A stretch of DNA of 64,000 bases from Planctomycetota bacterium (lineage in GTDB: Bacteria > Planctomycetota > UBA1135 > GCA-002686595): the NCBI GenBank assembly GCA_012959525.1, contig DUDB01000012.1, positions 1 to 64,000 on the forward strand. The letters are read 5' to 3'. The first letter of the stretch is position 1; every line of letters starts with the position of its first letter. The notes under the pieces were generated by a model. The model saw nothing but the letters and a program-made list of their open reading frames with translations. It had not been told where the DNA came from and made no database searches. Below, in pieces: positions 61,512 through 64,000 of this stretch. The position numbers and the translations under genes are program-made.

Positions 61512-63065
61512 ATGAAGAGCATCTATCTCTCAACCGCCCTGCTCGGCCTGTGCACCATCGCCCACACCCAGGGCAACCTGCTTCAAACGCAGACCAACAT
61601 GGCGTTCGGCCTCCAAAGCAGCAACATCATCACCCTTAACGGCCCCTTTGTTCCCGGCCAGACCCTGGTGACGGACCTCGACCTGGCTGGCATGCCCGTC
61701 ACGATGGAGATGTCCCCCTTCTCCATTCGCTCCGCGGCTTTCAGCCTTACCGTCGCCGGTGCGGCAGGCGAGCGGGACGTCGACCCTGGGGATTTCCGGA
61801 CCTTGCGCGGGGCGATCCTGGAAGACCCCGGTAGCGTGGTTGCCGGCTCCCTGATGGACGATGGCCTTTATGCGCGCATCAGCCTCACCAGTGGAGACGA
61901 CTATTGGCTTGAGCCCCTTGTGGCACGCGTCCCCGGAGCGGCCTCCAACCAGTACGTGCTCTACCACAATGATGACACCATCAGCCGCGTCGGCACCTGT
62001 GGTGCCGATCGATTGGCTGACAACGACCCCAAGATCATGCCCCCCCCTGGCGGCAACACCTACACGATGGGCATGCACTACACCGCCGATCTCGGTATCG
62101 ATAGTGATTTCAAGTTCTATCAGTCGTACGGAAACCCCTCGAAGGTGAAGAACCGCATCGAGCTCGTCATCAACACGATGGACGTGCAGTACGAACGCGA
62201 CGTCGACATCACCCACCGGATCACGAAGATTATCGTTCGCACCTCGCAGGGGCCGTATACCTCAACAGACCCGGGCACACTGCTCAACCAGTTCCGCAGC
62301 GAGTGGAACAATAATCAGGGCAATATCAAGCGCGATGTGGCCCACCTCTTCACCGGCAAAAACCTAGACGGCAGCGTCATTGGGATTGCCTGGCTGGGCG
62401 TCATCTGCAGCAACAACTCGGGCTATGGCTTGGTCCAATCCAACTGCTGTGGATCGCTCAACTGCGCGGCGGACCTCTCCGCCCACGAATTGGGCCATAA
62501 CTGGAACGCGGGCCACTGCAGCTGTGGTGGCTACACCATGAACTCCAGCCTGACCTGTTCGAACCGGTTCCAACCCAACAGCACCATCCCCGGAATGATC
62601 TCCTATCGGAACTCCCGAGGCTGCATCGACGACCCCCTTGTGGGCGACGTACTCTTCGAAGACGACTTCGAGTCCGGCTCCTATAAGAGTGGCTGGAACT
62701 GCTCCACCAACTCGCGCTGCAAAATGCAGAAACTGGCGGCGTACAACAGCGCCTGGGGCGTGGCACTCAAGAAGATCGTCACCTTCGATCGCTCCGTGAG
62801 CACCGTCGGGTACGGCGGCGTCATGATCGTCTGCGCACAACGCAGCCAGAACTACGAATCCACGGAATTCGTCACCCTCGAGTGGTTCGACGGGTCCGCA
62901 TGGAACACCGCGGATCAGTGGCAGCAAAAAGGTTGGGCCGAGCGCTTCACAGCCCTCCCCTCAGCCGCCGGCAACAATGCGTCCTTCGCCGTGCGCTTCT
63001 CCTGTAACGCCAAGGGCAAGAAAGAGCGCACCAAGATCGACAACTTCGTCGTGGTGGGCAGCTAA
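61512..63065 (+). CDS. Reprolysin-like (M12B-type) secreted metalloprotease
   Basis: A 517-residue secreted zincin. Signal peptide (LSTALLGLCTIAHTQ), then a propeptide-like region with RGAILEDPGSVVAGSLMDDG and ISLTSGDDYWLEPL, closely resembling the ADAM/reprolysin prodomain pattern, ending YVLYHNDDTISRVGTCG. Cys163-Gly164 occupies the place of the cysteine switch. The catalytic site is H325-ELG-H329-NWNAG-H335, with Met-turn candidate GMISY. A Cys-rich zone surrounds it, and a beta-sandwich C-terminal domain of about 130 residues follows. A perfect terminator hairpin lies 51 bases downstream. The paralogue at 63296 continues the array. Confidence 0.88.
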   Translation: MKSIYLSTALLGLCTIAHTQGNLLQTQTNMAFGLQSSNIITLNGPFVPGQTLVTDLDLAGMPVTMEMSPFSIRSAAFSLTVAGAAGERDVDPGDFRTLRGAILEDPGSVVAGSLMDDGLYARISLTSGDDYWLEPLVARVPGAASNQYVLYHNDDTISRVGTCGADRLADNDPKIMPPPGGNTYTMGMHYTADLGIDSDFKFYQSYGNPSKVKNRIELVINTMDVQYERDVDITHRITKIIVRTSQGPYTSTDPGTLLNQFRSEWNNNQGNIKRDVAHLFTGKNLDGSVIGIAWLGVICSNNSGYGLVQSNCCGSLNCAADLSAHELGHNWNAGHCSCGGYTMNSSLTCSNRFQPNSTIPGMISYRNSRGCIDDPLVGDVLFEDDFESGSYKSGWNCSTNSRCKMQKLAAYNSAWGVALKKIVTFDRSVSTVGYGGVMIVCAQRSQNYESTEFVTLEWFDGSAWNTADQWQQKGWAERFTALPSAAGNNASFAVRFSCNAKGKKERTKIDNFVVVGS

Positions 63066-63116
63066 CCCGGAGCCACCCAACTCGGGTGCCGACAGCGGGC
63101 GCCCATGGATCCTCCA

Positions 63117-63158
63117 AGCCCCCCCTGGTCTCATTTTGAGGGCAGGGGGGGCTCTTTA
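63117..63158 (+). terminator. Intrinsic terminator after the first metalloprotease gene
   Basis: AGCCCCCCCTG at 63117-63127 pairs perfectly with CAGGGGGGGCT at 63143-63153 (11-base stem, 15-base loop), followed by CTTTATT. It is the only clear factor-independent terminator seen in the window and separates the two paralogous protease genes into different transcripts. Confidence 0.85.
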
Positions 63159-63295
63159 TTAGCCCTACGCGGTCTCCCTGCCGGCATCCGAAGGGCAATC
63201 CGGGGGAACACTCGCGCTCCTCCCATCGTCGTATGTACCCTGTGCGGCGTCCCCGACTCTCTGACCCCCGGGCCTTCAAGCCCCAACTAGCAACC

Positions 63296-64000
63296 ATGCA
63301 ACTAACTCCCCTCAAGCGGTTCCTGCCCCTTTCAGCAGCGTTATGCCTAACAGGCCTCGTTGGCGCACAGGACAACCTTGTCCACGTCCAAGCCAACATG
63401 GCCCTCGGCCTTGAAGACAGCCAGCTCATTCGCATCAATCAACCGATGTCCGTTGGATCCAATATCCTGCTCCAAGTGGACCTGGGTGGCCTTCCGATGA
63501 CGCTGGATCTCGCCCCCCAGTCCGTCAGGACATCCGGATTCAAGGTCGTGCTGATCGGTGAAGACGGCGTGGAGCAAGCCATTGAGTCCGGGCCCGTCCG
63601 CACACTCTGGGGCTCCGTCCTGGAAGACCCCGGCAGCATTGTCAGCGCAAGCCTCCTCGATGATGGCCTGTACGCTCGCATCAGCCTGTCCAGCGGAGAC
63701 GACTACTGGCTTCAGCCCATTGCCTCCAAAGTTCGTAACGCCGCTCCCACGGACTACGTTCTCTACCACAACGACGACACGATTGACGTTTCTCGCCGTT
63801 GCGGAAGCGACCTCCTCAAGGACCAGATTCCCGAGCCCGAAACCACCGGTGGCGGAACCACCTACGGCCCTGGCACGTTCTGGATCTGCGAGATTGGATG
63901 CGACACCGATGCCAACTACTACAACGACTATGGTAGCGCCGCGGCGGTGCAGGCCCGGATCGAATCGGTCGTCAACGGTCTGAACGTCCAATACCTCCGG
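63296..64000 (+). CDS. Reprolysin-like metalloprotease paralogue, cut by the right edge
   Basis: 235 codons from ATG 63296 run open to the window end. A signal peptide (FLPLSAALCLTGLVGAQD) is followed by a region aligning throughout with the N-terminus of the preceding protease: QANMALGLEDSQLI, WGSVLEDPGSIVSASLLDDG, ARISLSSGDDYWLQP and YVLYHNDDTIDVSRRCG. Cys169-Gly170 matches the candidate cysteine-switch CG. The catalytic domain has not yet begun at the cut, so zinc ligands cannot be checked. It is separated from its neighbour by 230 bases including a terminator, so it has its own promoter. Confidence 0.88.
   Translation, partial: MQLTPLKRFLPLSAALCLTGLVGAQDNLVHVQANMALGLEDSQLIRINQPMSVGSNILLQVDLGGLPMTLDLAPQSVRTSGFKVVLIGEDGVEQAIESGPVRTLWGSVLEDPGSIVSASLLDDGLYARISLSSGDDYWLQPIASKVRNAAPTDYVLYHNDDTIDVSRRCGSDLLKDQIPEPETTGGGTTYGPGTFWICEIGCDTDANYYNDYGSAAAVQARIESVVNGLNVQYLR

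Follow-up and report, generated by a model that had tools for sequence, protein, structure and literature searches.

Is the latency of animal ADAM proteases, in which an inhibitory prodomain precedes the catalytic domain, confined to animals? The question is raised by two adjacent genes at the end of a 64,000-nucleotide stretch of DNA (hereafter the window; positions 1-64,000 of the forward strand of contig DUDB01000012.1, assembly GCA_012959525.1) from a Planctomycetota bacterium (UBA1135; GCA-002686595). Open reading frame 1 (ORF1; 61512..63065, plus strand) encodes a putative secreted M12B (reprolysin-like) zymogen of 517 residues. ORF2 (63233..64000, plus strand) is its tandem paralogue; it is open at the window edge and continues to position 64876 on the contig, giving a complete protein of 547 residues. 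A preliminary description of the window proposed that the two proteins share an ADAM-style prodomain ending in Cys-Gly and that, if this cysteine chelates zinc, the latency mechanism of animal metalloproteases occurs in bacteria too. Our analysis indicates that the latency device built into animal ADAM proteases, with a cysteine plugging the active-site zinc, is probably not confined to animals.

Homology of the prodomain to that of ADAM17

The ORF1 and ORF2 proteins are 56% identical. Both consist of a signal peptide of Sec type (judged by eye), a prodomain of about 150 residues, a reprolysin catalytic domain, and a C-terminal module. Every prodomain motif quoted in the preliminary description is found in both proteins: ILEDPGS/VLEDPGS, MDDGLYARISL/LDDGLYARISL, and DDYWLEPL/DDYWLQPI in ORF1/ORF2, respectively, and YVLYHNDDTI in both. 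The prodomain ends with TCG in ORF1 (Cys codon 61998-62000) and with RCG in ORF2 (Cys codon 63800-63802), as the shared Cys-Gly ending had been described.

The ORF1 prodomain (approximately residues 21-172; 61572..62027, plus strand) is assigned as an ADAM-type beta-barrel by profile search, AlphaFold2 (AF2) models, and Foldseek. Homologues were collected from 154 genomes in the class, 105 of which contain a match to the prodomain-plus-catalytic query; at the level of the phylum, the prodomain profile has matches in 72 of the 392 genomes covered. A bacterial profile built from 56 prodomains and searched against 177,635 distinct PDB sequences retrieves only the five ADAM17 prodomain chains, with E values of 1.7e-9 to 2.2e-8, and the next match has an E value of 0.075. 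Scored against this profile, the ADAM17 segment obtains 40.3 bits, compared with -0.9 bits for the reversed segment and 5.3 bits for the best of 2,000 shuffles. With a single ORF1 sequence there is only a hint of ADAM17: the full-length query matches it with an E value of 0.0015, and a phmmer search with the prodomain ranks it first, with an E value of 0.14, which is too weak as evidence by itself. The prodomain and the catalytic domain have diverged in a correlated manner (Mantel r 0.73, against at most 0.16 in 500 permutations), with median identities across the phylum homologues of 26% and 39%, respectively. By profile comparison, the bacterial prodomain is homologous to the inhibitory prodomain of ADAM17. 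The proposed relationship to M12B propeptides is thereby borne out: the profile search, the shuffle control, and the two Foldseek searches described below point to the ADAM17 prodomain alone.

The catalytic domain (approximately residues 187-375; 62070..62636, plus strand) is defined by Pfam, PDB relatives, and Foldseek. Residues 191-350 match Reprolysin_5 with an E value of 1.2e-26 and 94.6 bits (cut-off 27), Reprolysin scores 44.6 bits (cut-off 20.8), and four further reprolysin models besides Reprolysin_5 are over their cut-offs. By these curated cut-offs, ORF1 is classified as an M12B reprolysin-type metallopeptidase. The solved relatives of the domain in a PDB sequence search are adamalysins and ADAMs. 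The zinc site HELGHNWNAGH (His325, Glu326, His329, and His335; 62484..62516, plus strand) is present in ORF1, as the preliminary description reported, and in ORF2 beyond the window edge. The metzincin motif HExxHxxGxxH has a glycine at position 8; this residue is, however, an asparagine here, and the motif reads HExxHxxNAGH. An alignment of 62 homologues shows no exception to the zinc-site His and Glu, and the third His is present in 73/73, whereas position 8 varies among the 73 (asparagine and glycine in 29 each, serine in nine, aspartate in five, and alanine in one).

Predicted structure of the zymogen

The prodomain and the catalytic domain of ORF1 (residues 20-375) were modelled jointly with AF2 without templates; model residue n corresponds to ORF1 residue n+19. 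The joint model has a predicted local distance difference test score (pLDDT) of 91.8 and a predicted template modelling score (pTM) of 0.91. The relevant ADAM17 zymogen structures were released in 2024-2026, later than the AF2 training data. In a Foldseek search with the joint model, the top four PDB matches are ADAM17 zymogen chains, with query TM-scores (TMq) of 0.69-0.73 and both domains superimposed in one frame. For catalytic-only enzymes the TMq is 0.43-0.48, and for profragilysin it is 0.44-0.53. The catalytic half accounts for about 0.48 of the TMq; therefore, the remaining 0.21-0.25 comes from a prodomain placed about as in ADAM17. In the model, both the fold of the prodomain and its docking position are those of the ADAM17 zymogen. 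With the prodomain modelled alone, Foldseek finds five ADAM17 matches (E values 5.9e-7 to 4.2e-5; next match 0.19), and no other beta-barrel lies near it in the PDB search.

Thr162-Cys163 (model residues 143-144) form a strand or bridge in the joint model only, with none in the prodomain alone. The pLDDT of model block 141-150 is 84 with the catalytic domain and 62 without it, and the strand at 54-59 is seen in the joint model and absent from the prodomain-alone model. In the ADAM17 zymogen, two prodomain strands continue the catalytic sheet, and the prodomain tail sits in the cleft (PMC12184519). Because the ADAM17 prodomain extends the sheet and fills the cleft in this way, the strand at 54-59 and the ordering of Thr162-Cys163 fit docking of the ADAM17 type.

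Conservation of the candidate switch cysteine

The candidate switch of ORF1, Cys163-Gly164 (61998..62003, plus strand), was located by conservation among the homologues and by alignment with the invariant cysteine of a second clade. Its counterpart in the translation of ORF2 lies within RRCGSD (63800..63805, plus strand). C163 is present in 69/73 homologues (49/52 after 70% clustering) and is the second most conserved column of the prodomain. At a median prodomain identity as low as that given above, this conservation indicates that the prodomain pattern noticed earlier is not due to chance. A glycine directly follows C163 in 55 of the 69, the spacing between the conserved proline and the cysteine is exactly 28 in 37/57, and the cysteine is retained in the other sampled families of the phylum.

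The same genomes encode a second, distant M12B family (L008 type: L008 208-1968, L144-L167), with prodomain identities mostly about 20-30%. The prodomain cysteine of this clade is invariant (25/25), mostly as Cys-[Gly/Ala]-Thr, and hhalign aligns the prodomains of the two clades with an E value of 1.1e-8, cysteine on cysteine. A conserved Cys-Gly at the prodomain C-terminus, as in a cysteine-switch zymogen, is thus present.

Proposed mechanism of latency and its alternatives

We consider it likely that the two proteins use ADAM-type latency, i.e. prodomain docking together with a cysteine switch, and that they become active once a disordered linker lacking a furin site is cut. Both genes would encode secreted M12B zinc endopeptidases made as inactive zymogens. 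The ADAM-type beta-barrel prodomain would pack against the catalytic domain, and its C-terminal tail would enter the active-site cleft. There, the thiol of Cys163 would take the fourth zinc position and displace the catalytic water, like Cys184 of ADAM17, which coordinates the zinc with three histidines (PMC11248996). The linker between the two domains (residues 174-186; 62031..62069, plus strand; pLDDT <50) is the presumed activation site; it would be cut by the enzyme itself or by another protease, and loss of the prodomain would free the zinc. From homology to ADAM17, we infer that the thiol binds the zinc, that the proforms are latent, and that a cut in the linker activates them. The furin motif R-x-K/R-R occurs in 0 of 73 family linkers, so the activating protease would be a non-furin protease or the enzyme itself.

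Several observations weigh against this mechanism. The AF2 joint model contains no zinc, and the TM-score of the prodomain-alone model to ADAM17 is moderate (0.48-0.54). A search of this genome and of 294 from the phylum with Pfam PF01562 (Pep_M12B_propep) brings no single member over the cut-off. In assays of ADAM17, inhibition does not require C184 (PMC12184519); for this reason, the tail may be as important as the thiol in the bacterial proteins. Four homologues with an intact catalytic site lack C163, namely L035, L046, and L071 (one genus, G118/G119) and L085. Four plasmid-borne relatives from Pseudomonadota and Actinomycetota (Pseudoalteromonas, Streptomyces, Xanthomonas, and Cedecea) have a prodomain-like region and no switch cysteine. 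Judged from these sequences, the cysteine is not essential everywhere, and the small sample of plasmid relatives suggests that the prodomain fold is broader than the switch. Finally, 14 of 41 single-Cys prodomains are accompanied by an odd number of catalytic cysteines, and an occasional disulfide at C163 is conceivable in these 14 members. The prodomains of L035, L046, and L071 have lost the switch cysteine and gained an insertion, with HExxH intact; these proteins are a natural test of the cysteine switch.

The alternative that survives best, although we regard it as unlikely, is that the prodomain acts in ADAM fashion as a chaperone for folding and as a steric inhibitor, its cysteine being kept for redox sensing, a disulfide, or a similar role, and not for zinc. 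The dispensability of ADAM17 C184 and the existence of Cys-less members and Cys-less plasmid relatives are consistent with this alternative. However, the Cys-Gly is near-invariant in divergent prodomains, including those of the second clade, no partner cysteine is lost together with C163, and the cysteine lies at the same place as the ADAM17 switch, both in the fold and in the order of elements.

A disulfide between C163 and a cysteine of the catalytic domain is considerably less probable. The enzymes are secreted and Cys-rich, and the odd counts in 14 of the 41 would accommodate such a bond, but the catalytic domain of ORF1 has eight cysteines, an even number. Moreover, the C163-less members retain the catalytic cysteines 299, 336, 349, and 371, indicating that no conserved cysteine is paired with C163. 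The preliminary description had named a disulfide far from the zinc as one of two outcomes that would refute its proposal; the retention of these columns and the ordering of the cysteine segment only in the presence of the catalytic domain make it unlikely.

Convergence of small beta-barrels is hardly credible: PF01562 misses the prodomain and the second-clade profile alone does not find ADAM17 in the PDB, but the E value of 1.7e-9 extends across the whole prodomain and is backed by the shuffle control, Foldseek finds no other barrel nearby, and the domain order is the same, beside a homologous catalytic domain. The suggested relation to Pep_M12B_propep thus holds through the profile and structure matches to ADAM17, and not through the Pfam model alone.

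Comparison with known zymogens

Like ADAM17 and the ADAM family, the bacterial proteins combine a homologous catalytic domain and prodomain, in the same arrangement in the model, with Cys-Gly near the prodomain C-terminus. Unlike them, they have no furin site and no disintegrin or Cys-rich domain (no Pfam match for either in ORF1), carry a different C-terminal module, and have a prodomain missed by PF01562. No transmembrane segment is evident by eye, no predictor having been run, in the 517 residues of ORF1. Because the furin site and the disintegrin and Cys-rich domains were looked for and are absent, the proteins are best described as M12B enzymes with an ADAM-type prodomain, not as ADAMs.

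Bacteroides fragilis also secretes a zymogen whose catalytic domain is ADAM-like, profragilysin. Fragilysin has been described as an animal-derived xenologue of adamalysins/ADAMs with its own distinct latency mechanism (PMC9848320), and the profragilysin prodomain does not clearly improve the superposition on the ORF1 model, as the TMq given above indicates. Among prokaryotic metzincins, a cysteine switch is established for the pappalysins mirolysin and ulilysin and for the astacin myroilysin, with a Cys-Gly motif in mirolysin too (PMC6949598, PMC8259862, PMC9848320). These enzymes belong to other catalytic families, however, and the pro-segment of pappalysins is short (PMC6949598) and not an ADAM-type beta-barrel. 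A bacterial cysteine switch in general is therefore not new, and the notion of animal-type latency in bacteria too needs qualification: the switch was already known from mirolysin and myroilysin (PMC6949598, PMC9848320), whereas a homologous ADAM-type prodomain in bacteria appears to be new. No earlier report of such a prodomain was found in the open-access library searched, which covers few subscription papers; this absence is weak evidence of novelty.

The bacterial proteins annotated as reprolysin-like metallopeptidases on Xanthomonas, Pseudoalteromonas, and Streptomyces plasmids resemble ORF1 in that their catalytic domains are related to its own and their N-terminal regions are prodomain-like, and differ in that the cysteine at the switch position is absent in the four examples read. 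On two Pseudoalteromonas plasmids, a gene annotated as 'hypothetical protein' directly precedes the reprolysin gene (L170 457-1173 and 1234-1977; L169 546-1250 and 1339-2082), and that of L170 resembles the prodomain as a separate gene, without the cysteine. A tblastn search of plasmid sequences with the window protein or L097 gives no match. Reprolysin-like domains are also encoded by 14 IMG/VR viral contigs (L127-L140), whose matches lie almost entirely in the catalytic domain.

Origin and significance

The 2025 report on the ADAM17 zymogen found no homologous structure of its prodomain in the PDB (PMC12184519). The origin of ADAM latency can be put to the test now that a widespread bacterial family shares this prodomain and switch. 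One tentative scenario, which we think somewhat doubtful, is that the zymogen unit (a switch-bearing beta-barrel prodomain followed by an M12B catalytic domain) arose long ago in bacteria and was retained by Planctomycetota, and that the animal and fungal ADAM line derived from this unit or its ancestor, the bacterial copies then not being late borrowings from animals. The depth of the family in the phylum, reflected in the median sequence identities of both domains, speaks against recent borrowing. The natural Cys-less variants, and possibly simpler proteins, may serve to gauge the share of the cysteine in inhibition, which is disputed for ADAM17.

Other features of the locus

The signal peptide of ORF1 spans approximately residues 1-20 (61512..61571, plus strand) and ends ...AHT-QG, as read by eye. 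In ORF2, an internal ATG at 63296 is the likely start of translation and of the signal peptide. Upstream of the pair, genes of purC, purE, and mtnA types, which are housekeeping-like, are read from the translations; downstream are a glyA-type gene and sulfatases. Because the neighbours are of these kinds, operon logic is not evident, and a consensus search found no promoter- or terminator-like site. The tandem pair is retained in a 91%-identical relative, PBIX01000115.1, from a metagenome-assembled genome titled Planctomycetota bacterium.

The C-terminal module of ORF1 (about 140 residues; 62637..63062, plus strand) is not a disintegrin, as indicated by Pfam and within-genome comparison. It carries the motif LFxDDFESG..GGW... 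and has no Pfam match. The 4 Mb genome contains eight Reprolysin_5 matches over the cut-off (contigs C12, C19, C35, C37, C42, C60, and C61), several with the shared module. The module is common to subtilisin-like, trypsin-like, M43-like, and several M12B proteins of this genome (L005-L012, identified by sequence reading), a pattern that would suit a shared sorting or surface tag for secreted proteases.
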